Virus record (IMG/VR): IMGVR_UViG_3300046507_000434
Location: 1 to 31,926 of that record
Reading direction: 5' to 3' (one strand)
Source: a virus
DNA length: 31,926 nt
The translations under genes and the position numbers were made by a program. Positions within the stretch are counted from its first letter, which is position 1. Each line of letters opens with the position of its first letter. Positions 1 through 25,772 of this stretch are shown piece after piece. The notes beneath the pieces are model-generated. The model worked only from the letters and a program-made list of their open reading frames with translations, made no database searches and was not told where the DNA came from.

Positions 1-394
1 TGTCGATTACCTCTGTCGTCGGCGCGGCCGGTTCCGGCTCGCTGGTTACGTTCTGCTGCTCTAGCGGCGTGAAAAGCGCCTCTGCTCCTGCCCGTGCTGC
101 TGCCTGCGTTTTCTGCTCGTCGTGCTCTTTGGCGAGGCGTTGCCATATCGGCACAATCCACGAGTTTTTAGAAAAGTCGTTGACCCGCATTTGCTTATCC
201 GGGGGCATCGTCGCAATACCTGCGCGCAATGCGTCTAACGGCGATAGCTCGGGGTTAGCGGACATTGCGGCCAGGCTCGCGCGTGCGATCTTTTCTTTCT
301 CCTCATTCGACCATCGCACAAAGTAACTAGACCGGCGTTCGCCGCCCTGCTCCTCCTGCCGGCGACGCTGAGCCATTGCATACGGGTGCGCCAT
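1..394 (-). CDS. Hypothetical phage protein, 3' end cut by window edge
   Basis: The frame is open from the ATG at 394 to the first base of the window, giving about 131 visible residues. The ATG overlaps the stop of the upstream gene as TAATG, and GAGGAGGG lies a few bases before it, so the start is well supported. The visible protein is charged and largely helical. It has an SSYFVRWSNEEKEK segment near residues 23-36, a central part with tryptophans (NSWIVPIWQRL), and an Ala/Glu/Pro-rich stretch towards the edge. I do not recognise a family. Being last in this minus-strand group, it may lead into the terminase/portal genes that are missing from the window; that is only a guess. Confidence 0.75.
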   Translation of the reverse strand, partial: MAHPYAMAQRRRQEEQGGERRSSYFVRWSNEEKEKIARASLAAMSANPELSPLDALRAGIATMPPDKQMRVNDFSKNSWIVPIWQRLAKEHDEQKTQAAARAGAEALFTPLEQQNVTSEPEPAAPTTEVID

Positions 395-615
395 TATTTG
401 CCCTCCTCTTTGTAGAGCTGCGGAAAGTGTTTTCTGTTTGCGTCGTGCATGCCGAGCGCAAGCCCGGCCTTATAGGCGGCTTCTGAGCGTTTCTCGGGGT
501 CTGCGTTGGGATAGAAGTACGCGACGACGGCGCGCAGCGCGTCGGCGAGCTGTTGCGCGTCCTGCGCGGTTGTCATGCCCTCGGTTTGCTCTGTCATTCT
601 GTGTCGTTGGCGCAT
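394..615 (-). CDS. Hypothetical small protein (up to 73 aa)
   Basis: A short acidic/helical protein with no family I recognise. It has an LADALRAVVAYFYPNAD segment and a lysine/glutamate-rich C-terminus. The stop overlaps the next gene's start as TAATG, which argues that it is translated. The start is uncertain: ATGs at 615, 597 and 576 are all in frame and none has a well-spaced Shine-Dalgarno (GAGGG lies only two bases before the ATG at 576). The upstream 200 bases hold an octad array and a hairpin rather than a gene, so this pair may have its own promoter. Confidence 0.55.
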   Translation of the reverse strand: MRQRHRMTEQTEGMTTAQDAQQLADALRAVVAYFYPNADPEKRSEAAYKAGLALGMHDANRKHFPQLYKEEGK

Positions 616-813
616 TGCGCGCCGAGTCGGTAAAAGTGTTACAAGTTATTTCCAGACAGTTGCAGAGTATGCCGATACGCGAAGCGCGACGCAAACGTTT
701 TTATGCATGTGCCTAGCACGTTTGCGGCCTGTCGTTTGTTCGCAACGCCACCATAGAAAACGGCGACATAACATCATGTCGCCGTGTCGTCGTGCCGCTC
801 TGTCGTCGTGTCG
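616..813. other. Intergenic stretch with hairpin and octad array
   Basis: No convincing gene. It contains the terminator-like hairpin at 756-785 and the first half of array R1. On the minus strand TTGCGT and CATACT, 17 bases apart (about 667-695), could be a weak promoter for the 394-615 gene, but the match to sigma70 boxes is poor. Confidence 0.4.
756..785 (-). terminator. Hairpin with short T-tract, possible rho-independent terminator
   Basis: A perfect 10-bp stem (ACGGCGACAT at 760-769 against ATGTCGCCGT at 776-785) with a 6-base loop is followed on the minus strand by TTTTC. It sits just downstream of the 814-1335 gene. One arm overlaps the first octad of array R1, so the structure may instead be a by-product of inverted octads. 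Confidence 0.4.
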
Positions 814-848
814 TTATGGCGTAACCTCGTCGTGCCGTCGTGCCATCA
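777..848 (+). repeat. Octad array R1: nine contiguous 8-bp units
   Basis: Read in steps of eight from 777 the units are TGTCGCCG, TGTCGTCG, TGCCGCTC, TGTCGTCG, TGTCGTTA, TGGCGTAA, CCTCGTCG, TGCCGTCG, TGCCATCA. The register is kept without a gap and units decay towards the right. The array covers the last codons and stop of the 814-1335 gene and extends past it. It is the longest of nine such arrays. Confidence 0.85.
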
Positions 849-1335
849 GCTCGGCCGCTCTGTCGTAAGACTCGGCCGCGCTGTCGAGCTCGCGGCCCTC
901 GCGCCACAGCACGCGCGTTTTCGATCGGCCGGCGCGCACTTCGCCGCCATGCCCGACGAGCGCCACGAATGCGGCCGCGTCGTGAAAATCGTACACGGTC
1001 GCGCGGAGCCCGCCCGTCACGTCGTATATACACAATTTCTCTACAGCCGGCCGTGTCGTCATGGCGTCGTGTCGTCCCGTCACATTCTCAATAAGCGCGA
1101 TTGCCGTGTCGAGCGCGCGCACGCGCCCCGCTAGTGCTGCGTTCATTCGTTTCCCTTGTTGTCCTGTCGTCGTGTCGTCGTGTAGCTTCGCATTGCATCG
1201 CACGCAGCGCGCCGCGAGCGGTACGTCGCGGAATTCCGCGAGCGACAGCCCCGCGCGGCGCAGCGCGACCGATGCCCCATTGCAGACCGGGGCGGAGCCG
1301 CCCCCGTTGCGGCCTAGGTGCTTACGTGGCGTCAT
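814..1335 (-). CDS. Composite ORF: Cys-containing N-terminal part plus unknown C-terminal part
   Basis: This 173-residue frame looks like two or three small genes run together. Residues 1-50 contain Cys18 and a CVRC pair (Cys44/Cys47) that could bind zinc. Residues 50-60 are encoded by octad array R3, residues 84-94 by R2, and the last eleven residues by R1. Met64 (ATG at 1146) has AAGGG seven bases upstream, the best ribosome site in the frame, so a second product of 110 residues is likely. Met92 (ATG at 1062) lies at an octad junction, like several genuine starts nearby. The ATG at 1335 has no Shine-Dalgarno and also lies at an octad junction (R4). No function is recognised. Confidence 0.55.
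   Translation of the reverse strand: MTPRKHLGRNGGGSAPVCNGASVALRRAGLSLAEFRDVPLAARCVRCNAKLHDDTTTGQQGKRMNAALAGRVRALDTAIALIENVTGRHDAMTTRPAVEKLCIYDVTGGLRATVYDFHDAAAFVALVGHGGEVRAGRSKTRVLWREGRELDSAAESYDRAAELMARRHDEVTP
1054..1085 (+). repeat. Octad array R2 (four units, inside an ORF)
   Basis: Units TGTCGTCA, TGGCGTCG, TGTCGTCC, CGTCACAT follow each other without spacing. The TCA|TG junction at 1060-1062 is an in-frame ATG on the minus strand (Met92 of the composite ORF). Confidence 0.75.
1157..1188 (+). repeat. Octad array R3 (four units, inside an ORF)
   Basis: Units TGTTGTCC, TGTCGTCG, TGTCGTCG, TGTAGCTT. The two central units are identical. On the minus strand the array lies just upstream of the Shine-Dalgarno and ATG at 1146, where a separate gene would be expected to begin. 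Confidence 0.75.
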
Positions 1336-1358
1336 GGTGACGTGTCGCCGTGTCAGCC
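1327..1358 (+). repeat. Octad array R4 over the start of the 814-1335 gene
   Basis: Units TGGCGTCA, TGGTGACG, TGTCGCCG, TGTCAGCC. The start codon of the 814-1335 gene (CAT at 1333-1335) lies exactly at the first junction, and the stop of the 1353-1583 gene lies in the last unit. Compare R8, which has nearly the same arrangement before the HTH gene. Confidence 0.75.
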
Positions 1359-1583
1359 GCGCAGCGCGGCGTTCGCTATCTGCTGAATGCGGCGGAATGC
1401 GCGCGCGTCGTGCTCGGCGTGGGCGTTGCTGGAATCGACCGACGCGGCCGCCTCGATACGCCGGAGCGCGTCGGCGAGCTGCGCCGTTATGTCGAGCTGG
1501 CGCGCGAGGTCAAGCGAGAGCTGACCTACGAGCGCGGTTTGTCCAAGTTTCGGTGTCATGTCGTCGTGTCTCCGCGTCGTCAT
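1353..1583 (-). CDS. Hypothetical protein, 76 aa
   Basis: A mostly helical small protein with no recognised family; residues 20-60 are rich in Leu, Ala and Asp. I chose the ATG at 1583 because it overlaps the stop of the 31-residue membrane ORF as ATGA, which suggests translational coupling. A second ATG at 1559 (MTPKLGQ) is possible. Both ATGs fall at octad junctions of array R5, so the first eight residues are octad-encoded. A longer in-frame extension to 1724 exists but would overlay the membrane ORF and is unlikely. Confidence 0.6.
   Translation of the reverse strand: MTTRRHDDMTPKLGQTALVGQLSLDLARQLDITAQLADALRRIEAAASVDSSNAHAEHDARAFRRIQQIANAALRG
1559..1582 (+). repeat. Octad array R5 over a gene start
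   Basis: Units TGTCGTCG, TGTCTCCG, CGTCGTCA, with a weak extra unit before (CGGTGTCA, 1551-1558). Junctions at 1558/1559 and 1582/1583 form the two candidate start codons of the 1353-1583 gene. Confidence 0.7.
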
Positions 1584-1675
1584 GCAAAAGTGTGAGCCGC
1601 GCCGATAGCCCACGAGCCATACAGCACGAACGACAGAGCAACGCCGGTTGCTACGGTTTGAATTACCTGCTTCAT
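1580..1675 (-). CDS. Small single-span membrane protein, 31 aa
   Basis: The ATG at 1675 has AGGGG six bases upstream and opens a 31-codon frame ending in TGA at 1580-1582. The product starts MKQVIQTV, followed by a hydrophobic stretch (about residues 9-27, with VALSFVLYGSW) and a short polar end. One lysine before the hydrophobic part suggests an inner-membrane anchor with the N-terminus inside, or a short signal-like peptide. The stop overlaps the next gene's start as ATGA. Function unknown; small membrane peptides in phage accessory blocks often act in lysis timing, superinfection exclusion or host modulation, but nothing here decides which. Confidence 0.6.
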   Translation of the reverse strand: MKQVIQTVATGVALSFVLYGSWAIGAAHTFA

Positions 1676-1699
1676 TTTCGACCCCTATTAAATGTTTTG

Positions 1700-1731
1700 T
1701 GTCGTCATGACTACGTGACGACACGGCGACA
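1700..1731 (+). repeat. Octad array R6 with inverted units, upstream of the 31-aa gene
   Basis: Units TGTCGTCA, TGACTACG, TGACGACA, CGGCGACA: direct units on the left, inverted ones on the right, forming the inverted repeat GTGTCGTCA / TGACGACAC. It lies 25 bases upstream of the ATG at 1675, an operator-like position. Confidence 0.75.
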
Positions 1732-1754
1732 TTAACAGGGGCCGCCGTGAGCTG

Positions 1755-1967
1755 TCAAGCGCGAATGCCGTTGCGGCGCTGCGCGCGCTGCTCGCGCTCG
1801 TAATCGTCTCTGCAATACGAATCGCAGAATAAATGCGGATTGGGTATGGACGACGAACAGAAATAGCACGCGCCGATCGCGAGTAGTCCCGGCTCCCGTT
1901 TGCGCTTGGCGAAAAGCGCCGCCTCGGCCTCGGCGCGGGCTTGGGTAATGTCTGCGTCATCCGGCAT
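1755..1967 (-). CDS. Small zinc-ribbon protein, 70 aa
   Basis: The second half carries CYFC (Cys34, Cys37) and, eleven residues later, C-x3-C (Cys48, Cys52), an arrangement typical of small zinc ribbons in phage and bacterial accessory proteins (compare DUF2116-type ribbons). The N-terminal 30 residues are a charged helix. Four cysteines probably hold one zinc ion; the partner (DNA, RNA or protein) is unknown. The ATG at 1967 has GGAGGG eight bases upstream and overlaps the end of the DUF3310 gene by 11 bases, so the two are probably co-expressed. Confidence 0.75.
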   Translation of the reverse strand: MPDDADITQARAEAEAALFAKRKREPGLLAIGACYFCSSSIPNPHLFCDSYCRDDYEREQRAQRRNGIRA

Positions 1968-2418
1968 TCGTCGAGCCCTCCCGGCGTGCGATTTCGCGGT
2001 CGAGATACCAACGCGCTTTTTTCAAGTCCTCTATCGCGTCGTGTTTCAGGTCCGCGCGCCAAATGTACTTAACGGCGTTGCCGAGGCAGAAGCCCATATG
2101 CTCAGTCACGACAATGCACTCGACGCCGGAAGGGTGCGCCGTGTAGTGCGTCGGGTGATTTACGGCGTCGTGTCGTTGTGTCGTCGCGTCGTCGTGCGGC
2201 TGTGTCGTTTGCGCAAGCGCGGCGTGCATCGCCTCGACGATCGCCGGGTAAATGCGGGAGGGGGGCGGCCCGTAGCGCGTGCCCTCGTCGGCGTCGCCGA
2301 GCTGCGCCTCGTCGATCATGCGCCCTTCGTACCAATCATAAAAGCCATCGGCCGGGCAATCTGTCGCGTGCGTGCCGTTTGTCCGGCCGCATTCCAGGCA
2401 TCTGACAAACGGGTTCAT
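1957..2418 (-). CDS. DUF3310 (SaV-like) protein with N-terminal Cys cluster
   Basis: Residues 87-147 match the DUF3310 pattern from memory: NHPTHY, then GVECI, EHMGFCLGNAVKYIWR and DLKKARWYLDREI. DUF3310 proteins are common small phage proteins often found near replication or nucleotide genes; their biochemical role is not settled. Residues 1-69 form a separate module with Cys7, Cys10 and Cys21, a possible zinc site. The join (residues 70-86) is encoded entirely by octad array R7. Stand-alone DUF3310 proteins usually begin shortly before the NHP motif, so this looks like an upstream ORF fused to a DUF3310 gene through the repeat. The start overlaps the HTH gene stop as ATGA. Confidence 0.8.
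   Translation of the reverse strand: MNPFVRCLECGRTNGTHATDCPADGFYDWYEGRMIDEAQLGDADEGTRYGPPPSRIYPAIVEAMHAALAQTTQPHDDATTQRHDAVNHPTHYTAHPSGVECIVVTEHMGFCLGNAVKYIWRADLKHDAIEDLKKARWYLDREIARREGSTNAG
2163..2210 (+). repeat. Octad array R7 inside the DUF3310 gene
   Basis: Six units: CGGCGTCG, TGTCGTTG, TGTCGTCG, CGTCGTCG, TGCGGCTG, TGTCGTTT. In the gene's frame they give a polar Thr/His/Asp/Gln linker between the Cys module and the DUF3310 domain. Confidence 0.8.
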
Positions 2419-2753
2419 TTCGACGCCCCCGCTTGCTTGGCTGACAGGGGAGGGCGCGCATTGATCGCGGCCGCTAGGCGTTGGCGCGTAGCGGCGGCTT
2501 TCGTGGTGCGCGGCCTGCGGAAAATGAGCTGCTCGCGCTCCTCGACCGGCAAGCGCTCAAGCGCGGCGAGTGTGACGAGGGCGGGATTAGGAACCGGGCT
2601 CAGGCCGTAAAGCCAGTTTTTGACCGTTACCGGAGATACGCCGAGGGTTAGCGCGAGGTCGCCGTCGATCATCCGGTTAGCGCGGAGGAGCCGGTTAAGC
2701 TCCGCGATACGCTCCGCGCTCGGGAGCTTCGAGAGCTGGTAAAGATTCGTCAT
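2415..2753 (-). CDS. HTH DNA-binding protein, probable phage regulator
   Basis: 112 residues. The region of residues 24-66 reads as a helix-turn-helix: DGDLALTLGVSPVTVKNWLYG is a clear recognition-helix pattern with the usual small residue and turn, followed by a LALE-type helix. The C-terminal third is basic and probably disordered. It could be the lysogeny repressor, a copy-number regulator, or an immunity factor; no other repressor candidate is obvious in the window. The ATG at 2753 has no Shine-Dalgarno and falls at an octad junction of array R8, so its expression is likely controlled by whatever binds there. A good CAGGAG lies 42 bases upstream before a three-codon ORF (2774-2785). Confidence 0.75.
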   Translation of the reverse strand: MTNLYQLSKLPSAERIAELNRLLRANRMIDGDLALTLGVSPVTVKNWLYGLSPVPNPALVTLAALERLPVEEREQLIFRRPRTTKAAATRQRLAAAINARPPLSAKQAGASK

Positions 2754-2792
2754 GGTGATATGTCGCCTTGTCGTCAGGTAGTCATGTCGTCA
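2745..2792 (+). repeat. Octad array R8 over the start of the HTH gene
   Basis: Units ATTCGTCA, TGGTGATA, TGTCGCCT, TGTCGTCA, GGTAGTCA, TGTCGTCA. The HTH gene start codon lies at the first junction (2751-2753), and the start of a three-codon ORF lies at the last (2783-2785). Confidence 0.8.
2774..2785 (-). other. Three-codon ORF (Met-Thr-Thr-stop) with good ribosome site
   Basis: CAGGAG at 2795-2800 (minus strand) precedes ATG ACT ACC TGA with nine bases of spacing. Its stop lies 20 bases before the HTH gene's ATG, which has no ribosome site of its own. It could be a leader minicistron, or the relic of an older start interrupted by octad growth. Nothing shows that it is translated. Confidence 0.3.
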
Positions 2793-2831
2793 ATCTCCTG
2801 TAACGTCTGTTTGCCGGGTTGCCTGTGTCTG

Positions 2832-2857
2832 CGTCGAGCGGGTCGGCCCGCTCGACG
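2832..2857. other. Perfect 11-bp hairpin downstream of the ParG-like gene
   Basis: CGTCGAGCGGG and its exact complement are separated by a TCGG loop. It lies nine bases after the 2866-3132 gene. There is no T-tract on either strand, so it is either a rho-assisted or processing hairpin ending the par message or a protein-binding palindrome. Confidence 0.6.
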
Positions 2858-2865
2858 GCTTGGGG

Positions 2866-3132
2866 TTACTTCGGTTCTTCGGTGCTGATTGGCTTTACGC
2901 CTGCGGCCTGCATCTGCGCGGCGAAGCCCTCTAACAGGAGCTGGTTTAGGCTCTTGCGCTGCTGCAACGCGAAAGCCTGCATTGCAATCCAATCGTCCTG
3001 ACTCCAAGGGCGCACAGCGATAGCCGGCCGCTTGGCGGTTCCGCGCGCGGCCTTGCCCGAGCTCGTCGAGGAGGTTTCAGCCGGCGCAGGCGCGGGCCGC
3101 TTTGCTGCGAATTTCGAAAGGTCGTGTTTCAT
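2866..3132 (-). CDS. ParG/omega-like RHH partition protein
   Basis: 88 residues, in the size range of plasmid ParG and omega proteins. Residues 1-40 form a basic, Pro/Ala/Ser-rich flexible tail. Residues 42-80 fit a ribbon-helix-helix fold: a strand (AIAVRPW), a first helix (SQDDWIAMQAFALQQ), a short turn (RKS) and a second helix (LNQLLLEGFAAQMQ). In the ParF/ParG system the mobile tail stimulates the ATPase and the RHH domain binds the centromere and represses the operon. The ATG overlaps the parA stop as ATGA, the classic parA-parB order. I infer that it binds the nine octad arrays, the nearest upstream one being R9. An RHH regulator without partition function is the alternative. Confidence 0.75.
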   Translation of the reverse strand: MKHDLSKFAAKRPAPAPAETSSTSSGKAARGTAKRPAIAVRPWSQDDWIAMQAFALQQRKSLNQLLLEGFAAQMQAAGVKPISTEEPK

Positions 3133-3758
3133 GCGTGGGATACCTCATTAACTGCGTTATGAATCCAAGCCCACACGGCGCGAATGTCGTCGGCGGCCGG
3201 CGTGCCCGGCGCGTATTCCGTCACGGCGCGGCCGCTAATCCACGCGTCGGGATATGCGTCGAGGCTTGCGAGGGTGTGTGGGCATACCGCGCCATAGCCC
3301 GAGAGGAGGGTGGTCGCGGCGGCCTTACGGCCTGCGGCCTTGCGGCCTATGCGGTTGATAACGAAGCCGAACGGCTTCGCGTGAGCGTTGAGAATGGCGC
3401 AGGTTGCCGGGAGCGTGAGGTAATCATTCGGCGTCGGCTGACACGGCACGACGACAAAATCCATATGCGAGACGAGCCCGGCGACGCCTGCGTCGGCGTG
3501 CGGCGGAAAATCGACCATGACATATTCGTAATCGTCGGCCTGCGCGGCCGCGAGAAAGTCGAGGATGGTCGAGGGCGTTACGACGCCGACGAACGGCGTC
3601 GCGAAAGGCCGATCCTCGCCCCATGCACTGACGTTGCCTTGCGGGTCGGCGTCCACGAGTGCCACCTTGTTTTGCTCCGCTGCGATTACTGCGCTATGCG
3701 AGGCGAGCGTCGATTTTCCGGCTCCGCCCTTCTGCGAAAAGTAGCCGATAACTTTCAT
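3129..3758 (-). CDS. parA: ParA/ParF-type partition ATPase
   Basis: 209 residues, the length of the small ParF-type ATPases rather than large P1-type ParA with an N-terminal HTH. The deviant Walker A KGGAGKST (residues 10-17, with signature Lys10), the A' motif DADPQG (36-41) and the B motif region MVDFPPH (81-87) are all present, so the enzyme should be active. These ATPases form ATP-dependent patterns on the nucleoid and move plasmid copies through a centromere-bound partner. The start overlaps the 73-residue ORF as ATGA and the stop overlaps the RHH gene, making one three-gene operon. Its presence means that the prophage state is probably an extrachromosomal low-copy plasmid. Confidence 0.93.
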   Translation of the reverse strand: MKVIGYFSQKGGAGKSTLASHSAVIAAEQNKVALVDADPQGNVSAWGEDRPFATPFVGVVTPSTILDFLAAAQADDYEYVMVDFPPHADAGVAGLVSHMDFVVVPCQPTPNDYLTLPATCAILNAHAKPFGFVINRIGRKAAGRKAAATTLLSGYGAVCPHTLASLDAYPDAWISGRAVTEYAPGTPAADDIRAVWAWIHNAVNEVSHA

Positions 3759-3976
3759 GCGGCCCCCTGATCGAAACGCACGAGACAGGAGCGCACTTCG
3801 CCGAGCGCCTTTTTATGCCGCGCGACCGGCTCGGGGTAGTGCGGCGTTTTTGGCTCCGATTGCTCAAGCGCGGTTTTTGCGAGCCGGAGCGCGTCGATTA
3901 GCTCGCTGTAAAACGGTAAATCTGCGAGAGCCGCGACGGTATTCGCGGCCGCGACTACTGTGTCTTTGTCTGCCAT
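3755..3976 (-). CDS. Hypothetical first gene of the par operon, 73 aa
   Basis: A helical, slightly acidic protein beginning MADKDTVVAAAN, with no recognised family. The ATG at 3976 has GAGAGG six bases upstream and is the first gene after array R9. It overlaps parA by ATGA, so it is translated with the partition genes. It could be an accessory partition factor or an unrelated gene caught in the operon. Confidence 0.7.
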   Translation of the reverse strand: MADKDTVVAAANTVAALADLPFYSELIDALRLAKTALEQSEPKTPHYPEPVARHKKALGEVRSCLVRFDQGAA

Positions 3977-4007
3977 GCTGGCCTCTCTGTTTAGCTGGTT
4001 CGGGTTA

Positions 4008-4055
4008 TGTCGTCACGACGACATAACGACTTGTCGCCGCGTCGCCGTGACGATT
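4008..4055 (+). repeat. Octad array R9 upstream of the par operon
   Basis: Units TGTCGTCA, CGACGACA, TAACGACT, TGTCGCCG, CGTCGCCG, TGACGATT. The first two form a near-perfect palindrome (TATGTCGTC / GACGACATA around two bases). The position, 32 bases before the first par gene, is where ParF/ParG systems place the centromere and operator, so this is the best candidate for the functional parS-like site and autoregulatory operator. Confidence 0.8.
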
Positions 4056-4482
4056 GCGAGACGATAAACCGAAAGGTCGGCCGGGCGCAAGTGGTAATCC
4101 CGCGTCCTTATGCACAAGCCGGGAAAACGCTCGGGCGTTTCCCCAACTTGCGCACAAGGCATCCTCGCGGCGTGCGGCCTACGGCGTGACTCGCTCCGCT
4201 CGCCTTGTTTAGATAGATTTCTCCTATCGACCCCCCGGCTTGCAAGCCCGCTTTTCAAAACCTCCATATGACCGGGAGCGCCTCGACGCCCACGCGCGAC
4301 GGCCGGCGTTATGCCACCGTCCACTCTCACGATAAGATTTTCGGGGGCCGTCAAGCCGCGCAGCGGCGTTTTAACCCCCGCTTGCGGGGGTCTGGATTTG
4401 AAGCGCCGTAGGCGCGCGGCCCTCGCGCAAAAGACAGAATCAGAGGAATCGTGCGCAAACCCGCGCCGTTGCTGGCTCGTGA
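4056..4482. other. Noncoding structured region between par operon and repL
   Basis: About 430 bases without a believable gene. Visible structures are an 8-bp inverted repeat GCGCAAGT (4085-4092) / ACTTGCGC (4146-4153) enclosing a second imperfect hairpin with GGGAAAACGC, and three hairpins in a row: GCCGC/GCGGC (4355-4367), ACCCCCGC/GCGGGGGT (4374-4391) and GCGCC/GGCGC (4403-4415). Divergent promoters for par and repL must lie in or near it. The combination suits a replication origin, or less likely a transfer origin, but no family-specific signature is recognised. Confidence 0.5.
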
Positions 4483-4584
4483 GGCTCATTTTTGAGCCCC
4501 TTTAGGCTCATTTTTGAGCCTTTCCATGTTGCATTGCAACAATTCGTGTGTAGTTTTTGAGTAGAAAAGGCTCATTTTTGATCC
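4483..4584 (+). repeat. Helically phased palindromes upstream of repL (iteron-like)
   Basis: GGCTCATTTTTGAGCC occurs at 4483-4498 and 4505-4520, and as GGCTCATTTTTGATCC at 4569-4584. A half copy (TTTTTGAG) is at 4554-4561. A different palindrome, GTTGCATTGCAAC, fills 4528-4540. The centres of these five elements (about 4491, 4513, 4534, 4556, 4577) are 21-22 bases apart, two helical turns, so all would face one side of the DNA. A further GGCTC half-site follows at 4591, again 22 bases on. The array ends about 90 bases before the repL start. It is a likely initiator-binding or copy-control site. Confidence 0.8.
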
Positions 4585-4674
4585 TTTACCGGCTCGCGGA
4601 AACGTGCGCATTGCGGCTCTTGTGGGCGAGCCGTTTACTTGATAAATTACGCGAAGTTCCGACAAGGAGGGCGT

Positions 4675-5166
4675 ATGGGCAAGGTGCGATTTCAGGGCGA
4701 GCGGGAGTTTCTCGACACGGCGACAGGCGAGATTTTCGGCGCGCAGGTCGTCGCGCGCGAGGTAGACGGCGACGCCGGTTTCGATAAAATTTGGCTCGGC
4801 GCAATCCTCGAATTGGTTAATGAGGTCGGCGGCCAAAAATACCGCGTGCTGCTGTGGTTGCTCCAAAACCGCGACGCCAAAAACGTTGTGCGCGCAACGA
4901 AAGAGGAGATAGCGAGCGCTACCGGCGTTGCGCGCGCGACGATTACGCGGCTGCTCGCGGCGCTCCGCTCGGCCGACGTGATTAGCGAGGTTCGCCGCTC
5001 CGTATGGCGGCTTAACCCCAACGTCGTATGGAAAGGCCAACACCACACGCGCATGTCTGTCTTGATCCAATACCGCGACGAGCGCGCCGAAGCACAGCGC
5101 GATCTTTTCGCGGAGCCCGAGGCCGAGCTTTTCCCCGATAACGTTCATCCGATTAAGGCCGCCTAA
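4675..5166 (+). CDS. repL: RepL-like plasmid replication initiator
   Basis: 163 residues from the ATG at 4675, which has AAGGAGGG five bases upstream; an upstream TTG at 4639 is less likely. The fold is a winged helix: TKEEIASATGVARATITRLLAAL (about residues 75-97) is the HTH, followed by a basic wing (SEVRRSVWRLNPNVVWKGQ, 104-122). The NPNVVWKG segment is the pattern I know from RepL-family initiators, first described on small Firmicute plasmids and now common in phage-plasmids. It is the only plus-strand gene in the left half. Its stop overlaps that of the primase gene (TAG on the opposite strand). It probably binds the phased palindromes just upstream or an origin inside its own gene. Confidence 0.8.
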   Translation: MGKVRFQGEREFLDTATGEIFGAQVVAREVDGDAGFDKIWLGAILELVNEVGGQKYRVLLWLLQNRDAKNVVRATKEEIASATGVARATITRLLAALRSADVISEVRRSVWRLNPNVVWKGQHHTRMSVLIQYRDERAEAQRDLFAEPEAELFPDNVHPIKAA

Positions 5167-7526
5167 GCGGCCGCAAACTCGCTGCCGGGGGTATGGGTGA
5201 GCCGGAGCCCGACGAAGCCGCGCAAGCCCGTCCCGCCCTGTTTCTTGCGCTCAAAGCCGCGCTGTTGCAGGGCTTGGACAAACTTCTTTTCGCTGCCGGG
5301 AAATTCGCCCGTCACGCCGCAGAATTCCTGCCAGTCTCCGTACAGCGCGTGCGAGTTGATGAATTCATCCGGCGCGGGGTCGGTGCGCTCGCGAAGCCAT
5401 GCGCCTAGCGGGTCCTCGTCCTCGAAATATTCCGCCGTCGCGTCCACCACGGCGCGCGGCGCGACGAGCCCGATTTTCTGCCACTCGATCGCGCCCTCGA
5501 TCGCCCATTGCAGGATTGCCGGATACTCGGCGACGAGCTTTTTGTCGAGCTGCTTATCGACTTTGCGCGGCTTGACCGTAAAGGGCACAAGGTGGAACCG
5601 GCGACGCATGGCGTCGTCTAGGTTCGTGATCGTCGGCTTGTAGTTGCCCGCGAATAGCAATTTGAATTGCGGCTGATACGTAAAAAAGTCTTTCGCCATA
5701 AAGCGCGCCGTAACGGGGTCGCCGCCCGTTAGCGCCTTTACCTTTGCCTCGTCCCACTTGCGGCCCCTGTCGTTCTCCTGCGCCGTCACGAGGCGCGCGC
5801 CCGCGAGCGCGGCGAGCGAGGTAGGGTGCTGGTCCGACTGCGACGCCATAAACGTATTCATTGACGTAGGCTGTGCGTAGTCCTTCCAAATTTTCGTGAT
5901 CGCGTTAAGAAACGTGCCTTTGCCGTTGCCGCCGGGGCCGTGAAAAAACGCGAGCGCGTGCTCGTTCGTGAGGCCCGTAAGCGTGTATCCGGCGAGGCGT
6001 TGCAAATACGCCTCTAGCTCGCGATCGCCGCCCGTCGCCTCGCGGAGAAACGCCTCCCAAAGCGGCGCGGCGCGCTCGGCCGGCGCAACGAGCGTCGTTT
6101 TCGTCATCAGGTGTTCCGGCGAGTGCGGCCGCACGCGACCGGTTTCGAGGTCAACGATTCCGCCCGGCGTATTGAGGAGGAGGGGGTTAGCGTCGAATTC
6201 CGAAACCTGCGCGACGACGGCCGGGTTAGACGACGCATAGCGCGCCACGGCGAGCATTGAGTTAAGCGAGGCGCAACGCGTCGCGACTTTGTTCGCCGTG
6301 CCTTTCTCCTCGATCGTGACGAGCGCCTCGGCGCTCGCGGCCGCGCCGATCTTTCCGGCCCAATGGTGTACGGTCTGCGACTCGTCGCGCGCCCAACGCT
6401 TGCCCGTCCATACGAGCCATCCCCCGAGCGCGGAGCAGTACCGCAGCTCGTGACCGTGCTTTTTCAGGAACCGCGCCGCGAGCGCGCCGTCGCTGTACTG
6501 CACGCCGGCCGTGCTCTGCTCGACGAGCTCGCCCTCGGCCGGAGGGTCGATCGCGTCGAATTCGTCGGCCGGAACGTGCCCGAACTCGCGCGCCGTGTCG
6601 AAAAGGTAATTCGCGCCTACCTCATACGGGGGTTGCATGCGCTCCCAATCGGCGCGCACTGTGTCGGCGTCGTTGCCGGCGTAGTTTTCATTGCCCTCCC
6701 ACTTGAGCGCCCAACGTTCGAACAGCTCGTAACCGGCCTCGCCTGCGGCCGCCTTGATCGCATAGCCCACGCGCAAGTAATCATCGCGGCCGGCAAAGTG
6801 CTCGTTATCGTTCGGCATCGCGTCCACGGCGGCCGCGAGCTTGTCGAGGTCGTCGGCGCTGAGGTTGCCTTGATTGATGCCGTCGCGATCGACGGACAAA
6901 GAGCCATTGCCCTCGCGCTCTGTCGCGTAGCCGAGAAAGTCGAGCGTCGCCGCGAGCTCGACGAGAAACGCGTCGGCCGCCTCGCTGTCGATCATGTTTA
7001 GCGCCGACGCCTCGACGAGCGGCGAGCGCCACGAATACGGTTTCTGTGTGCCTGGGTGAATACCGGACAAAACGAATTGCTGCCCGTCGCCGAGGATTTC
7101 GACTAGATGCTTACGGCCATCAATCCATAGGCGCATGCGGCCGAACGGCGCGGCCGTGCGGTACATGAGGAGCGACTTAGGCACGCGCCCTTGCCGCTCC
7201 GGCGCGCGGCCTAGGTGCGCGATCGCAAGCGCGCGGATTACCTCGACGAGCTGCTCGTCGCTGCAATCAATGTCAACGGCCGGAAACGAGCCCGCACGCA
7301 GGCCGACGTTAGCGCCGTCTGCATCCCATTGCGCCACTTCGCGCAGCGTCGCCGCGCCTGCTTTCTGCCAGTTATAGCCGTACCACTCGCCGGAGCTCGA
7401 TCGCTTGCCCGGCGTTTTGCCGAGCTGGTCGGCTTTGAGCTTGCTGTTAGCGGTGAGCTTCGCGCCGGGGGGCACGACACTAACGAGGTCGGTGAATCCA
7501 AGTTTGAACAGTTCGCGAGCGTTCAT
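5163..7526 (-). CDS. Phage primase-helicase (prim-pol N-terminus, SF3 helicase C-terminus)
   Basis: 787 residues. The N-terminal part fits a bifunctional primase-polymerase domain: AVDIDC with the acidic pair at Asp85/Asp87, and a QFVLSGIHPGT block (150-160) typical of the second half of that domain. Residues 240-310 resemble the PriCT-2 linker. Residues 450-520 look like D5_N. The SF3 helicase follows, with Walker A GPGGNGKGT (530-538), a B-type motif LVTAQE (579-584), motif C FAGNYKP (625-631) and a DAMRRRF arginine-finger region (638-644). It would prime and unwind DNA at the lytic origin. It is the last gene of the replication operon and starts by ATGA overlap with the polymerase. Confidence 0.92.
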   Translation of the reverse strand: MNARELFKLGFTDLVSVVPPGAKLTANSKLKADQLGKTPGKRSSSGEWYGYNWQKAGAATLREVAQWDADGANVGLRAGSFPAVDIDCSDEQLVEVIRALAIAHLGRAPERQGRVPKSLLMYRTAAPFGRMRLWIDGRKHLVEILGDGQQFVLSGIHPGTQKPYSWRSPLVEASALNMIDSEAADAFLVELAATLDFLGYATEREGNGSLSVDRDGINQGNLSADDLDKLAAAVDAMPNDNEHFAGRDDYLRVGYAIKAAAGEAGYELFERWALKWEGNENYAGNDADTVRADWERMQPPYEVGANYLFDTAREFGHVPADEFDAIDPPAEGELVEQSTAGVQYSDGALAARFLKKHGHELRYCSALGGWLVWTGKRWARDESQTVHHWAGKIGAAASAEALVTIEEKGTANKVATRCASLNSMLAVARYASSNPAVVAQVSEFDANPLLLNTPGGIVDLETGRVRPHSPEHLMTKTTLVAPAERAAPLWEAFLREATGGDRELEAYLQRLAGYTLTGLTNEHALAFFHGPGGNGKGTFLNAITKIWKDYAQPTSMNTFMASQSDQHPTSLAALAGARLVTAQENDRGRKWDEAKVKALTGGDPVTARFMAKDFFTYQPQFKLLFAGNYKPTITNLDDAMRRRFHLVPFTVKPRKVDKQLDKKLVAEYPAILQWAIEGAIEWQKIGLVAPRAVVDATAEYFEDEDPLGAWLRERTDPAPDEFINSHALYGDWQEFCGVTGEFPGSEKKFVQALQQRGFERKKQGGTGLRGFVGLRLTHTPGSEFAAA

Positions 7527-9855: not shown

Positions 9856-10428
9856 TTACATGAGGTCGTCGATTCCGTTTCCGGCCGCTGCGCCCTCGAA
9901 TTCGGCTTCGCCTTCCTCGGCTTCAAACTCGTCCTCTGCCTTCATACGTCCGTCGAGGCGTTCGCCGTCGCGGATTTTTTGCATGTTGTTTAGGTAGAAC
10001 GTCACGCCCTTTTTGCCTTTCGCCTCGAAATGCTTAGCGACGATCGACGCGATAACGACACAGCCGGGATACATCTGCTCGGGGTCGTTGATCGGTGCGG
10101 GCTTGCCGTCCGGCCCCTTGAAACGCGACACAATGCCGGGTTTCTTCTCCGTCGTGACGTTGATAAAAATCGAGCCTTCCGGGTAGCCTTTAGCGGCCGC
10201 GTCCTCACGAAACGGCACGTGAATACGCTTCGTTTTGAGGAGCTCGGCGGCCTTGCTGCCATACTTCTCCTCGGCCGCTTCGAGCACGGCTTGCTTGAGC
10301 GCGGAAAGGTCCGTACCGGCCGGGAACACGAGCGAGGCCGAATACTTGAGCTTGCCGTCATCGTTCGCGCGCGGCGTGAAAAGGAAAGGATAGCTAAGGA
10401 TAGCTTCGGGAGTTTTGATTGCTGGCAT
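9856..10428 (-). CDS. DUF2815 single-stranded-DNA-binding protein
   Basis: 190 residues. The N-terminal two thirds have the DUF2815 look: a YPFLFTPRANDDGKLKYSASLVFP strand region near the start, a central GYPEGSIFINVTTEKKPGIV and an NDPEQMYPGCVV region. The C-terminus is strongly acidic and ends GIDDLM, like the protein-interaction tail of SSB. Family members coat ssDNA in phage replication. It follows the DUF2800 gene after five bases, with AGGA upstream of the ATG, and lies in the usual DUF2800-DUF2815-polymerase order seen in many phages. Confidence 0.85.
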   Translation of the reverse strand: MPAIKTPEAILSYPFLFTPRANDDGKLKYSASLVFPAGTDLSALKQAVLEAAEEKYGSKAAELLKTKRIHVPFREDAAAKGYPEGSIFINVTTEKKPGIVSRFKGPDGKPAPINDPEQMYPGCVVIASIVAKHFEAKGKKGVTFYLNNMQKIRDGERLDGRMKAEDEFEAEEGEAEFEGAAAGNGIDDLM

Positions 10429-10433
10429 GTCTG

Positions 10434-11627
10434 TTAGTCCTGTTGGGGGGCTTCGATTGCGTCGAATTCGTCGCCGGGCGAGACGCTAATCGCTTCGCCC
10501 TTCGCCGATTCCGGCACGAGGTTATAGCCGCTCGATTCCTTCACATAGAGCGAGGCGGCTAGGTTCTTTTTGCCGACGATTTTCTCGACTTGCGCGACCG
10601 TCTTTAGCGTCGGCTCGTTGTATAGCTGATCGCGCGTTACGTCCGTCGTCTCCGTCAAGCGCGAAACGATTACGCTGTCGGCCTCTTTCCACTGCCGGTT
10701 AGCGCGCTTCGCTACGAGCTTGAAACCGGGCACGGCGCGGCCCTGCTCGGCCTCGCTTTGCAGGAACCCGCGCACGTCGTCGAGCCAATCCGCGAATTTG
10801 ACGCGCTCGGCCACGGCGAGAATTTCGGCGGCCTGCTCAACGGTCATTGCCGAAACAGAAGGGAGCGCCGGGAATACCGGAGCCGGGAGGGCGGCCGACA
10901 TTGCATCGAGCCGTGCGGTGCATTGCCCCTTTGCAGGGCAAAAACGACAGTGCTCGCCGGGCACGAGCGGAGCGTCGGGCTCAAGCGTTGCGGCGACAGC
11001 GGCCGTAACCTCGTCGGCGAATTCGATCATTTGCCACGGCGAATAGGTGTGCGAGCGGATCGGCCCGAGCTCGTGCTCTTTGCGCGGCTGACAAATGAAC
11101 GTCTCGACGGCTTGAATCGACCAATCGCGAGGCATCGCGACAGATACCCAAGCGCCGAGGCCGTAAATCTTGAGCTGTGCGTTATCCTCGACTTCGACGG
11201 CCACGCCTGCGCCGTGTTTATAGTCGCCGACGATCAAACGCCGCAGCGCGGGAACGTATGCGATAAGGTCGCTCGTCCCGTAGACCGGCGCGGGCGTGCC
11301 GAGCGCGTCGAGGTTGACGCGTTGCTCAAGCAAAATAACCACGTCGAGACCGGCCTCGACATACGACATAACTTTCGCGACATACACGTCCACGGCTTCG
11401 AGCATGTCGGTCGTTGCGACGAGCTGCGCCTCGGCGGCCGCTTCGTGTAGCGCGGCATCATCCGGCGATAGCCGCGACCGTAGAATCAGCTCGGCGAGGG
11501 CGTGCGCGTTCGTGCCTTCCTCGGCGTATTTCGAGCTCTTTTCCTCGATCCCGGCCGACATGCGAATCGAGCCGGGGCACGTCATCCAACGCTTTGCGCC
11601 ACTCGGGCTATGTACTGCGTGACCCAT
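10434..11627 (-). CDS. DUF2800 protein, Cas4/RecB-like nuclease
   Basis: 397 residues. The PD-(D/E)XK core is visible: EEGTNAH near residues 36-42, GTSD with Asp120, GDYKHG with Asp135 and Lys137, and Gln151 on the following helix. Cys17 together with Cys227, Cys230 and Cys236 (CRFCPAKGQC) would hold a 4Fe-4S cluster, as in Cas4 and AddB-type nucleases. It is a probable 5'-3' ssDNA exonuclease that resects ends for recombination, acting with the DUF2815 ssDNA-binding protein encoded next. The C-terminal third is conserved in DUF2800 but has no assigned function. Confidence 0.87.
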   Translation of the reverse strand: MGHAVHSPSGAKRWMTCPGSIRMSAGIEEKSSKYAEEGTNAHALAELILRSRLSPDDAALHEAAAEAQLVATTDMLEAVDVYVAKVMSYVEAGLDVVILLEQRVNLDALGTPAPVYGTSDLIAYVPALRRLIVGDYKHGAGVAVEVEDNAQLKIYGLGAWVSVAMPRDWSIQAVETFICQPRKEHELGPIRSHTYSPWQMIEFADEVTAAVAATLEPDAPLVPGEHCRFCPAKGQCTARLDAMSAALPAPVFPALPSVSAMTVEQAAEILAVAERVKFADWLDDVRGFLQSEAEQGRAVPGFKLVAKRANRQWKEADSVIVSRLTETTDVTRDQLYNEPTLKTVAQVEKIVGKKNLAASLYVKESSGYNLVPESAKGEAISVSPGDEFDAIEAPQQD

Positions 11628-12197: not shown

Positions 12198-13493
12198 CTA
12201 ATTCCCCATAAGTTCGAGAATGTCGCGCGCTCTGCGCGACGTGATTTGTGAAACCGCCTCGTCGATCGAACCGGCGAGAGCGAACGGCCTTACAAAAACC
12301 GGGCGGGTCTGCCCGTAACGATGAGCTCGCTTTGCGGCTTGTACGTTGATATGAGGCGTTACGGATTCCTCAATAAAATTAACGTAAGTCGCCGCCGTGA
12401 GCGTGATCGTGTGGTGCCCCGCGTCGAGCTGCACGACTGCGGCGCGCGTGCGGGGGTCATTCTGGAATTGATATTCGGCGGCCGCGCGCACCTTGTCGGT
12501 TTGCCCGCCTTGGATCGTCACGACGCCGAACGCGCGGAGCTGCTCCGCGACGATCGCGAGCGCCGCGCGATGCTTGCCGAATATCAGGGTTTTTTCATAT
12601 GCGCCGCTTTCGAGCTCGTCGGCGATTATCTGCGCGACCGGCCGCGCTTTCGTGAGCGCGGTAAGCCGGCGCACGGCCGCGAATACGATCGGCTCCTCGC
12701 CATCGGCCCAAAGTGTCCGCGTATCGTCCAGGGCGGCCGACTCGATTACGCGGCGCGCGGCCTCAAAGTCGGGCGTATCGACGAGCCGCGCGAGCTCGCT
12801 GGAAACGTCGGCGGCCTCGATCGTGTATGCGTCCTGCCAGAAAATCGGCGGCCCGCTCCACAGCTCGGCCGTGCGCCGGAGCATGACGGAATCGAGGAGG
12901 GCGCGCAGCTCCGGCGCGTTGCGGTTGCCGCGAATCTTTGGGCCGTAGTCGCCGTGTTCAAGTTGACAGTACCGCTCGATAAAGCCGTCATAAGTGCTCG
13001 TCGCTTCGGTGAGCTTTTCCGGGAACAGCGCGCGCAGCATCGGGAATAGCTGGCCGGCGTGCGTCGGGACCGGCGTCCCGCTCATCGGCCAAATGTAATC
13101 GCTCAAGCCCGCGAGGCCCGTATTCCGGCAATGCGCGCCGTATAGCGCCTTTGTGCGCTTCGCTTGAGGGTTCGTGAGGTAGTGCGATTCGTCCAGTATG
13201 CAAACGTCCGGCCGCCATGCGCGCAGGCGCTTACGCAATGCCTTATCGGTCGCGAGCTTGTCGTAAGACTCGACGAATATCTCGGGCCGCCATACGGACC
13301 AACGATCGAACTGGCTACGCCACATAGACCGGCCGAGCGCGGGTGCGGCGACGAGCACGCGGCGCGCGCCGACGCGATCGGCCGCAAAGATAGCTTGCGG
13401 CGTCTTACCCATGCCGGGCACGTCCGCGAGCAGGCCGCGCCGAACGTCGGCGAGCCATTCGCCGCCCTCGCGCTGGAATGGTTCTAGGATCAT
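12198..13493 (-). CDS. SNF2-type DEAD/DEAH-like helicase
   Basis: 431 residues, compact for the family. Motif I DVPGMGKT (24-31), motif II DESH (101-104), motif III SGTP (about 138-141) and motif VI QAAKRAHRYGQTRPV near the C-terminus are typical of SNF2/SMARCAL1-like ATPases used by phages. Such enzymes move on double-stranded DNA and remodel or anneal forks. It probably acts with the resolvase encoded upstream. It starts by ATGA overlap with the 64-residue gene. Confidence 0.9.
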   Translation of the reverse strand: MILEPFQREGGEWLADVRRGLLADVPGMGKTPQAIFAADRVGARRVLVAAPALGRSMWRSQFDRWSVWRPEIFVESYDKLATDKALRKRLRAWRPDVCILDESHYLTNPQAKRTKALYGAHCRNTGLAGLSDYIWPMSGTPVPTHAGQLFPMLRALFPEKLTEATSTYDGFIERYCQLEHGDYGPKIRGNRNAPELRALLDSVMLRRTAELWSGPPIFWQDAYTIEAADVSSELARLVDTPDFEAARRVIESAALDDTRTLWADGEEPIVFAAVRRLTALTKARPVAQIIADELESGAYEKTLIFGKHRAALAIVAEQLRAFGVVTIQGGQTDKVRAAAEYQFQNDPRTRAAVVQLDAGHHTITLTAATYVNFIEESVTPHINVQAAKRAHRYGQTRPVFVRPFALAGSIDEAVSQITSRRARDILELMGN

Positions 13494-13684
13494 GATTCGC
13501 GGGAGACGGCCGCAGAGACGCGGAGCCCGAGGCCGCGCATGCGATCGCGCAGCGCTTCAATCTCTGCGAGGTCGTCGGCGTACTCCGCCACATTGGGGCA
13601 AGTCGCGATTAGGTTATGCAGCTCGACGAGCGCATAGTCGATTGCGAGCTCGACGAGCGCGAGATTCCGGCCGGTGATTTGCAT
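13490..13684 (-). CDS. Hypothetical small protein, 64 aa
   Basis: A helical, acidic protein (VELAIDYALVELHNLIATCP then a charged coil-like AEIEALRDRMRGLG). No family recognised. It overlaps both neighbours (TAATG with the resolvase stop and ATGA with the helicase start), which supports real translation within the operon. Confidence 0.65.
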   Translation of the reverse strand: MQITGRNLALVELAIDYALVELHNLIATCPNVAEYADDLAEIEALRDRMRGLGLRVSAAVSRES

Positions 13685-14166
13685 TACGCCGCCCGCGCGT
13701 CGAGCTTCGTAAATGCGTAGGCGATAAGCGCCGCGTCGCTCCGGCCGTGATCTTTCACGAGCGCGAACAACTCGGCATACGCCGGGAACAGTTGACAGGC
13801 GCGCAGGCGCGAGCCGTCCTTACCGCTCGGCACGCGTGCGAGCGCTTGCCACTTCTGCGGCTCGATCAACTCATAGGGGATATTGAGGCCGCAGAGCACG
13901 CCCTCGATTACGCCGAAGCAATGCCCGAAAGCAAAGGTGCTCGACAGCCCTTGCTTTGGCATGGCGTGTACGCGCTCAAGCGCGGCAAAATCGACGCGGT
14001 ATGCGCCGAGCATGCGCGCAAACGCGGCCGGAATGATTCGGCGCACTTGGCGGCCGCCGATCTTTACGACGGCCGTAGGCGTGTCGAAAACCTCAAGCGT
14101 GCCGAGCTCTGTGTCGAGCACGGTTACAGCTCCGGTCGCGCCGGGGTCAATTCCTGCAATTCGCAT
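13684..14166 (-). CDS. RuvC-like Holliday junction resolvase
   Basis: 160 residues from the ATG at 14166 (AGGA seven bases upstream); an upstream TTG at 14187 is less likely. RuvC/RNase H-fold motifs: GIDPGATGA near the start with the first metal-binding Asp, LERVHAMPKQG with the second acidic residue, and HGRSDAALIAYA near the end with the third. Phage members of this family cut recombination and replication junctions before packaging. It is the first gene of the replication operon and lies beside the AT-rich control region. Confidence 0.87.
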   Translation of the reverse strand: MRIAGIDPGATGAVTVLDTELGTLEVFDTPTAVVKIGGRQVRRIIPAAFARMLGAYRVDFAALERVHAMPKQGLSSTFAFGHCFGVIEGVLCGLNIPYELIEPQKWQALARVPSGKDGSRLRACQLFPAYAELFALVKDHGRSDAALIAYAFTKLDARAA

Positions 14167-15274: not shown

Positions 15275-15302
15275 AAAAAGGCCGCATTGCGCGGCCTTTT
15301 TT
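15275..15302. terminator. Strong bidirectional rho-independent terminator
   Basis: AAAAAGGCCGC and GCGGCCTTTTT (15275-15285, 15291-15301) around ATTGC, with T-tracts on both strands. It ends the plus-strand pair and the long minus-strand virion operon; the TAA of the last virion gene lies in the T-tract. Confidence 0.93.
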
Positions 15303-17499: not shown

Positions 17500-17508
17500 A
17501 GATTCCCT

Positions 17509-19278: not shown

Positions 19279-19280
19279 AT

Positions 19281-20324: not shown

Positions 20325-20326
20325 TT

Positions 20327-21316: not shown

Positions 21317-21792
21317 TGTTCGGTGTCCTTAAAATATTCTGCAAAACTTTCGTGCGATTCCATCAGGAAACGCCGAACCGTCGCGGAGTGCTCGCGCATC
21401 GCCTCATAGCCGCGCGTAATAAAAATGACCATCGAAACGAGTTCGAGGTAAAAGTCGCGCAGGCCGTATGCCGTCGCGCGGTCCTGCGCGTCTCCTTTTT
21501 CCATCCCGGCCGAATCCATAAAGGCATTCATGCCGGCCGCCATGACCGGCATTAGTATTGCGCCGTGGCGCTGGTAAAAAGGGTTCGTCTGTAGGCCGAT
21601 CGTCGCGAGCCAAAAGGCCCGGTTGATCTGCGAATCGGTTAGCGGCTTGTCGCGGTCGATTAGGTCATCCCACGTTTCCGCGATCTCGCCGACGATATGC
21701 AGGAACCGCAATGCGTCGTTGTCCTGAATAATACCGGCGAGCAGAGCGTCGCGGTCTGCGTGCCATTCCGGCGTGTCGTAATCGTCTCTCAT
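21313..21792 (-). CDS. Conserved-looking hypothetical virion-operon protein, 159 aa
   Basis: A well-ordered globular protein with no low complexity: YDTPEWHADRD at the start, then helices with ETWDDLIDRDKPLT, TIGLQTNPFYQRH and a hydrophobic MPVMAAGMNAFMD. A semi-hydrophobic helix (LELVSMVIFITRG) lies near residues 116-128. I know no function for it. Overlaps on both sides (TGATG and ATGA) place it in the structural operon. Confidence 0.65.
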   Translation of the reverse strand: MRDDYDTPEWHADRDALLAGIIQDNDALRFLHIVGEIAETWDDLIDRDKPLTDSQINRAFWLATIGLQTNPFYQRHGAILMPVMAAGMNAFMDSAGMEKGDAQDRATAYGLRDFYLELVSMVIFITRGYEAMREHSATVRRFLMESHESFAEYFKDTEQ

Positions 21793-21992
21793 CAGTTCGT
21801 CACCACCACGGCCGAGAGCGCGCCGGTATTGCTCACAGTTACGCTATACCGCGTGCCGTTCGGCGCGCGCAGCACGACGCGGCCGGTCCCGACTTCGAAC
21901 GTCCCGCCCTGTTTGACGTTTTGTGCGTCGTTGTATTCGAGCAAGCGTTTCCACGTCGGCCCGTCGAAAGAGGAGGTTAATTGCAGTGACAT
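21792..21992 (-). CDS. Small beta-rich virion-operon protein, 66 aa
   Basis: Short, beta-strand-rich sequence (TSSFDGPTWKRLL, GGTFEVGTGRVVLRAPNGTRYSVTVSNTG). It starts directly after the TAA of the tail protein gene and ends in a TGATG overlap. It may be a small tail or connector subunit; no family recognised. Confidence 0.6.
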   Translation of the reverse strand: MSLQLTSSFDGPTWKRLLEYNDAQNVKQGGTFEVGTGRVVLRAPNGTRYSVTVSNTGALSAVVVTN

Positions 21993-24079: not shown

Positions 24080-24081
24080 AG

Positions 24082-25770: not shown

Positions 25771-25772
25771 CG

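Follow-up and report, generated by a model that had tools for sequence, protein, structure and literature searches.

Gapless 8-bp repeat arrays as proposed sites of a type Ib partition system in a probable phage-plasmid

Within a viral DNA stretch of 31,926 nucleotides (IMG/VR record IMGVR_UViG_3300046507_000434; hereafter the window), we identified nine gapless arrays (R1 to R9) of an 8-bp unit, TGTCG[T/C]C[G/A] (the octad), all of them at positions 763-4055. A tenth array (R10) was found on a second contig, and the arrays accompany an operon that encodes a ParF-like ATPase (ParA) and an 88-amino-acid (aa) protein modelled as ribbon-helix-helix (RHH)-like. Apparently, this is a type Ib partition system with RHH-type sites used as satellite operators. 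The reading that we consider probable is that the RHH protein would read all ten arrays, with R9 and R8 serving as centromere and par operator and the other arrays serving as satellite operators.

Octad arrays in the window

An earlier note on this sequence described nine arrays in strict 8-bp register with about 46 units, some of them degenerate; all nine are confirmed (Table 1), and they contain 46 octads. Compared with TGTCGTCG in either orientation, 32 octads have ≤2 mismatches and 41 have ≤3, against background frequencies of 2.1% and 8.7%, respectively, over positions 4101-31926. The consensus T-G-T-C-G-[T/C]-C-[G/A] was derived from 41 octads. Five octads (R1 unit 3, R2 unit 4, R3 unit 4, R7 unit 5, and R8 unit 2) have ≥4 mismatches and are unconvincing singly. 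R1 comprises nine octads, R7, R8, and R9 comprise six each, and R2 to R6 comprise three or four. Judged by the orientation that they match better, 40 of the 46 octads point the same way relative to transcription; those nearer the inverted unit are found in R6 (two), R9 (three, one perfect and two weak), and R8 (one weak), bearing out the earlier description of mostly direct units with inverted ones in R6 and R9 and adding R8 to it.

Three-octad matches with ≤6 mismatches occurred at 20 positions in 1-4080 and at none in 4081-31926; in 100 dinucleotide shuffles of the window, the mean was 0.12 and the maximum was 2. A consensus-free lag-8 test with a cut of 18/24 identified 16 positions, compared with none in 19 of 20 shuffles and one in the remaining shuffle. 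At a cut of 16/24, lag 8 gave 61 positions, compared with 0-28 in shuffles. Both tests therefore exceed shuffled sequence, which is the excess of periodicity that the earlier note presupposed. At 16/24, the lag-8 test also picked up one stretch (3317-3351) that is unrelated to the octads; it is parA coding sequence with its own 8-bp period and encodes GRKAAGRKAA. The same cut missed R4 and R5. No lag-7 positions were found in the window at 18/24. Over the whole window, lags 9 and 15 exceed lag 8 at 18/24 (20 and 28 positions, respectively), so the period by itself is not unique to lag 8. Lag-9 stretches at this cut are situated in 19029-31692, and stretches with period 9 are present in coding regions at 19029-19066, 19848-19881, and 31649-31692.

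In a leave-one-out analysis, every array scored above all 31184 scored non-array positions. When a matrix from four R9 octads alone was used to scan 758-6759, the other eight arrays were found, along with one match at 6230.

ParA and the RHH-like protein

ParA matched PHROG 164 (7e-35), and its best PDB sequence match was ParF (4dzz; 1e-9 over residues 1-127). It also matched NF041546 at 1.5e-35, yet under the curated cut-off. The 209-aa protein begins at the Walker motif and has no DNA-binding N-terminal extension. The RHH gene is directly downstream of parA, with a 4-nt overlap. The sequence features by which a type Ib (ParF/RHH) system is recognised are present: a ParF-like ATPase, a small downstream RHH protein with a flexible N-terminal tail, and a repeat array upstream of the operon.

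By itself, the 88-aa protein had no sequence match in Pfam, PHROG, NCBIfam, or PDB, and a tblastn search with it against plasmids and phages returned no match. The AlphaFold (AF2) model, for which 17 relatives were aligned, has a mean predicted local distance difference test (pLDDT) score of 77. It contains helices at residues 45-58 and 62-76, and the block of residues 41-80 is at pLDDT 92-96; the tail is of low confidence (blocks at pLDDT 53-61), and the strand expected ahead of the first helix is unassigned in the monomer model. VIA fold matches include Arc, PutA, and other RHH proteins (Z ≤4.7), with ParG among them (Z 3.1, root-mean-square deviation 14.3). In a Foldseek search, the top E value was 0.54, and no match reached ≤0.001. 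Weak fold scores (Z ≤4.7) are expected because the model is a short monomer of an obligate dimer. A profile of the aligned family (18 sequences) matched a CopG-type RHH protein (E 0.0023) and ParG (1p94; E 0.061). Based on the model, the 88-aa protein is assigned as RHH-like.

Arrays at related parA loci

A single-sequence ParA scan of viral contigs returned no match; a query built from an alignment of five ParA sequences succeeded. We compared 164 loci, comprising the best 80 of at least 485 genome loci, the best 80 of 282 viral loci, and 4 plasmid loci. An array was called when the 250 bp before parA contained a lag-8 stretch with ≥16/24 matches. By this call, 38 of the 164 loci have a lag-8 array upstream of parA, compared with 1.15 expected from dinucleotide shuffles of the same stretches. 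The coding control yielded lag-8 arrays in 0 of 164 loci, and other lags (5-7 and 9-15) were found upstream of parA in 1 to 8 loci. The result was similar after near-duplicates were removed (36 of 152 loci). By source, the array loci are on 32 of 80 viral contigs, 6 of 80 genome contigs, and 0 of 4 plasmids.

The octad words include TTGATACC in loci L094-L097, CGTATACN in L117 and L135, CAACCATN in L122 and L125, GCNNGCAT in L163, and CGACATGA in L060. Some relatives carry arrays of mixed orientation at the corresponding place. When each locus was scanned with its own matrix, at least two arrays were found in 30 of the 38 loci. Their usual places are ahead of parA, where parA meets the RHH gene, and behind the RHH gene; we take the arrays ahead of parA and behind the RHH gene as equivalent to R9 and R8, respectively. 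Based on a model trained on no-array loci, an RHH open reading frame (ORF) follows parA in 32 of the 38 array loci.

The variety of octad words near parA, where period 8 in particular stands out, together with the occurrence of one unit at ten separate places in the element, is difficult to reconcile with neutral slippage expansion of a short, GC-rich, functionless repeat. The variable lengths and degenerate edges of the arrays would suit such an expansion, which we nevertheless regard as extremely improbable.

Similarity of the RHH core was correlated with similarity of the octads (r 0.47; 0 of 2000 permutations were as high) across 40 loci and the window (n=41), a set in which the RHH protein was chosen by hidden Markov model and the upstream lag-8 score was ≥15. 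An earlier correlation (r 0.58; 27 loci and the window) was superseded, as the regular expression used to choose RHH proteins had dropped L094-L097. In L060, the RHH core is the closest to that of the window (0.28), and the octad is also the most similar among the 40 loci (0.89). We read the link between RHH protein and octad as one that holds within lineages and not as a general code.

Arrays also occur beyond the par operon in some relatives. Flanks of the relatives were mostly 3 kb, with some shorter; for L094-L097, L163, L111, and L108, the search with the locus's own octad word extended to the whole record. Own-matrix matches beyond the par operon were found in 6 of the 38 loci, at a threshold that admits about one chance match per ten loci, and convincing far arrays are present only in L163 and L111. 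In L163, octads appear again 1.1 kb upstream and about 10 kb away, and the pattern, counted on both strands of a near-palindromic word, has 23 matches compared with 0 for the control. On the contig of this locus (L163/L174, contig G025), which carries a ParA-RHH element, the array about 1.1 kb from par sits between integrase-like and Mom-like genes. In L111, an apparently mostly noncoding stretch of about 1 kb (4013-5060) behind the parA-RHH pair is packed with TGTGGGCA octads and looks like a very long candidate centromere. L111 was considered as a second network of arrays at gene boundaries and was rejected, as its matches form mostly one long octad-rich block without a convincing gene. The matches in L108 are at par, within about 1.1 kb of one another. 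In the whole records of L094-L097, octad pairs are confined to the par locus, except for two 2-mismatch matches in G001, where the control has 5 matches. Within these flanks and records, no locus had arrays at one gene after another as the window does. Extra arrays outside par occur elsewhere, and their spread across genes in the window is unusual.

A second contig and the whole element

An exact 23-nt array pattern matched 0 viral contigs. A 21-nt IUPAC array pattern, used to scan the same viral collection, matched a single contig, L176 (IMG/VR 3300046507_000635; 11721 bases). Positions 11498-11721 of L176 align to window positions 1-221 at 98.7% identity, and L176 positions 1-200 align to window positions 31727-31926 at 99.5%. 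The part that the window lacks thus seems to be L176, from this element or one nearly identical to it; joined, the two would span about 43 kb and form a circle or a circular permutation. The earlier note would have counted against its reading any occurrence of the same arrays in relatives without the par operon; in this narrow scan of viral contigs, the only match was L176, which seems to belong to the element itself or to a nearly identical one. The note's statement that no arrays are present elsewhere holds for the window, as given above, and fails for the element as a whole, given the array on L176.

That array, R10, is the one octad array that the same scan found on L176 (about 5581-5620). 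On one side of it is a sigma-70-like promoter sequence, TTGACA-17-CATACT (10/12), and on the other the start codon (ATG 5577) of a gene for a serine resolvase (PF00239, 1.9e-32); promoter-like sites in L176 5400-5800 number 2, compared with 0.1 in shuffles. Because resolvases often resolve plasmid multimers, control of this gene by a partition protein would make sense. L176 also carries genes for an H-NS-like protein (5766-6119) and a HicB-like RHH antitoxin (10147-10521), the latter with an RHH_5 match slightly under the cut-off.

L176 encodes an SU10-like portal and an Sf6-like small terminase, and the window encodes capsid, scaffold, tail, and DNA replication genes, RepL, and ParA. With structural genes and plasmid replication and partition genes together, the element is probably a phage-plasmid.

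Proposed roles of the arrays and alternatives

We propose that the type Ib partition system encoded by the phage-plasmid itself has the arrays as its cognate sites. By analogy, the 88-aa RHH protein would bind all ten arrays, its dimers lining up one per 8 bp. R9, with R8, would be the centromere at which ParA engages the complex, and it would also be the autoregulatory operator of the par operon. R7 to R1 and R10 would act as satellite operators, through which the same protein would damp the accessory genes and the resolvase during plasmid maintenance; R7 and R1, with six and nine octads, could also serve partition. For the RHH protein omega, one dimer binds per 7-bp repeat, and at least four contiguous repeats are needed for full ParA activation (PMC9499535). 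R2 to R6 have three or four octads each, around this limit or under it, and would therefore be better suited as operators. R10 begins shortly after the -10 box, so bound protein would hinder initiation; at R1 to R9, where promoters were not recognised, the alternative would be a block of elongation or of leader function. Binding, with one dimer per octad, repression, and centromere function are what we infer from these patterns.

The proposal can be extended to a master silencer of a maintenance regulon, which we offer tentatively as a possible but doubtful version. In this extension, the partition protein would form RHH filaments on arrays at nearly every accessory gene boundary, and these would act as orientation-dependent roadblocks inside a transcription unit rather than as promoter operators. 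Assembly of the partition complex would then be tied to expression of par, the helix-turn-helix (HTH) regulator, the DUF3310 gene, and the resolvase, with a private octad word for each lineage. Phage stoperators are comparable roadblocks.

The placement of the arrays also bears on a pure partition scaffold, in which all arrays would be extra centromere sites that enlarge the complex or compact DNA, and nearness to genes would be a by-product of gene density without regulation. Promoter-like sites in 1-4700 are at chance, R1 to R3 and R7 overlap coding sequence, and the octad-rich block of about 1 kb beside par in L111 resembles a long centromere, all of which would suit a scaffold. We consider it unlikely, however, given how the arrays sit relative to genes: R10 separates a promoter match (10/12) from a start codon; start codons lie within or directly beside R2, R4, R5, and R8; and R3, R6, and R9 precede one by 10-31 nt.

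Alternatively, the arrays could be repressor sites like those of prophage regulators and be read by another protein, either the XRE-like HTH protein (2415-2753) or the HicB-like RHH protein of L176. That relatives repeatedly carry 8-bp arrays ahead of parA argues against both candidates, and no array is near the HicB-like gene. Gapless direct repeats of 8 bp would be unusual sites for HTH dimers, which as a rule recognise longer palindromes. Even with the start codon of the HTH gene inside R8, as for an autorepressor, and with the near-threshold RHH_5 match of the HicB-like protein, we find a different reader quite improbable.

The bias in orientation (40 of 46 octads) and the leader position of several arrays are compatible with action at the level of RNA or protein, whereby (CGACGACA)n ahead of start codons would tune translation or bind an RNA-binding protein, or the encoded HDDTT-type stretches would matter. 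The inverted units in R6 and R9 make such action very unlikely, as do the relatives, in which arrays at the equivalent position are of mixed orientation and built from quite unlike octads.

Several results weigh against reading of all ten arrays by the partition protein. Sigma-70-like promoters in 1-4700 are at chance level (1 found, 1.1 expected); the lone promoter-like site (1112-1084, minus strand, 9/12) ends at the edge of R2. The RHH protein of the window has no match to PF20605 (Antitox_RHH), whereas 14 of the 18 aligned family members do.

Among relatives, three quarters of the 164 loci fail the array cut. RHH presence does not discriminate between array loci (32 of 38) and no-array loci (68 of 89; p 0.48); because RHH ORFs are about as frequent without arrays, their presence alone does not tie arrays to RHH proteins. 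With training loci removed, the counts are 14 of 24 and 37 of 88 (p 0.17). All counts of RHH presence exclude 34 loci with intermediate scores (14-15). An association obtained with another model (28 of 38 compared with 38 of 89; p 0.0018) was withdrawn for training bias, because 14 of the 17 training loci of that model were array loci. For pairs with <40% core identity, the correlation between RHH cores and octads is gone (r 0.036; 516 of 2000 permutations), and it may therefore reflect shared descent only. In L164, whose RHH core ranks second in similarity (0.26), the octad is unlike that of the window (0.27). The nearest relative by replication genes, L009 (primase 69% identity), shares with the window the order of a small ORF, read by eye, followed by the beginning of parA; in its sequenced part, octad matches are at chance level (2, compared with 0.88 expected), and the region around parA (12351-13700) lacks any lag-8 stretch of ≥14. 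The L009 contig ends inside parA, so its RHH gene is not seen.

The earlier note had proposed that one RHH protein both segregates the element and regulates the accessory block. This proposal gains partial support from the 8-bp arrays found repeatedly ahead of parA (38 of 164 loci), from the RHH ORFs that follow parA in 32 of those 38, from the correlation between RHH proteins and octads among related loci, and from the RHH model; the non-discriminating presence of RHH ORFs and the chance level of promoters lend it none.

Array placement and neighbouring genes

The likely genes in 394-3976 are all on the minus strand. R9 lies 31 nt from ATG 3976, the start of the first ORF of the par operon, and has a perfect inverted repeat with 10-bp arms at 4005-4026. 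R2 and R3 are inside the longer 173-aa ORF (814-1335), and the starts at 1062 and 1146 are therefore alternative and uncertain. R1 overlaps the 3' end of this ORF, and its end at 777 is 161 nt ahead of ATG 615. Beside R1, an inverted octad pair (785-760, minus strand) gives an 11-pair hairpin followed by TTTCT, which is terminator-like and at the regional chance level.

The RepL family is a Firmicute plasmid type, here in a tailed-phage genome of 62% GC. Upstream of repL, 4484-4583 contains three near-identical palindromic copies of AGGCTCATTTTTGA(G/T)CC, possibly origin, operator, or terminator elements; one stretch of this region scored as terminator-like. Two long ORFs (732 and 589 aa) at 15301-19278 adjoin the replication block and have no PHROG match.

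Table 1. Octad arrays and genes in the array-bearing part of the window
Feature	Positions	Strand	Description
R1	763-848		Longest array; 777-848 direct, plus inverted unit at 763-770
R2	1054-1085		Within 173-aa ORF; contains alternative ATG 1062
R3	1157-1188		Within 173-aa ORF; 10 nt ahead of alternative ATG 1146
R4	1327-1358		ATG 1335 of 173-aa ORF in its lower end
R5	1559-1582		Runs from stop of 31-aa ORF to ATG 1559 of 68-aa ORF
R6	1700-1731		Includes inverted units; 24 nt ahead of ATG 1675 (31-aa ORF)
DUF3310 domain protein, 153 aa	1957-2418	-	PF11753, 1.8e-15
R7	2163-2210		Within 153-aa ORF, directly ahead of DUF3310 domain
XRE-like HTH protein, 112 aa	2415-2753	-	Pfam matches sub-threshold only
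R8	2745-2792		ATG 2753 of HTH gene in its lower end
RHH protein, 88 aa	2866-3132	-	Proposed centromere-binding protein and repressor; AF2 model, RHH fold matches
parA, 209 aa	3129-3758	-	ParF-like Walker ATPase; PHROG 164, ParF 4dzz, and NF041546 matches
73-aa ORF	3755-3976	-	First gene of par operon; no family match
R9	4008-4055		Mixed-orientation array upstream of par operon; proposed centromere and operator
RepL-family replication protein	4639-5166	+	PF05732, 2.2e-28; points to plasmid replication

Significance and comparison with known systems

The comparison of related loci suggests a rule in which ParF/RHH operons carry gapless 8-bp arrays upstream of parA, with a lineage-specific word. 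Such a rule might allow the centromeres of many uncharacterised phage-plasmids to be read from sequence, and the paired RHH sequences and octads are material for a DNA-recognition code of RHH partition proteins. With one word at ten places, including a resolvase promoter, control of maintenance genes by a partition protein becomes directly testable. In a literature coverage that takes in few subscription papers, none of the titles listed on RHH partition, phage-plasmid ParA operators, and centromere repeats concerned this element or stated an octad rule for operons of the ParA-RHH type.

MetJ dimers, also of the RHH type, bind gapless 8-bp met boxes; however, MetJ is a metabolic repressor with a palindromic box and no role in partition. 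The StbA-stbDRs system of R388 differs in that its 9-bp repeats are spaced by 2 bp, StbB is dispensable for stability, and the outside sites are insufficient alone for stability. The four partition sites of N15 are dispersed in its genome. Like the element described here, N15 is a phage-plasmid with several such sites (four SopB inverted-repeat sites; PMC7205306); unlike it, N15 uses a ParB/SopB-type protein and inverted repeats rather than an RHH protein and octads.

The ParF-ParG-parH system of TP228 shares the order of a ParF-like ATPase followed by a small RHH protein, and its upstream short boxes form a centromere and an operator bound by the same protein; ParG binds parH as well as its operator (PMC7308502 and PMC5016525). 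Whereas parH consists of degenerate tetramer boxes with AT-rich spacers, the octads are gapless, GC-rich, and present at ten places, including genes outside par.

The delta-omega-parS system of pSM19035 has a 7-bp repeat, WATCACW, at six sites located at copS, delta, and omega, and this repeat does not describe the arrays, which have period 8, a GC-rich consensus (TGTCG[T/C]C[G/A]), and ten sites in a phage genome. Furthermore, most of the sites here lack a recognisable promoter, and some are within coding sequence, whereas the omega parS sites overlap the copS, delta, and omega promoters (PMC9499535). The two systems are alike in their gapless, short, non-palindromic repeats, in direct and inverted orientation, which in pSM19035 are read by RHH dimers at several promoter-overlapping sites (same source) and for which we propose reading by an RHH protein here.

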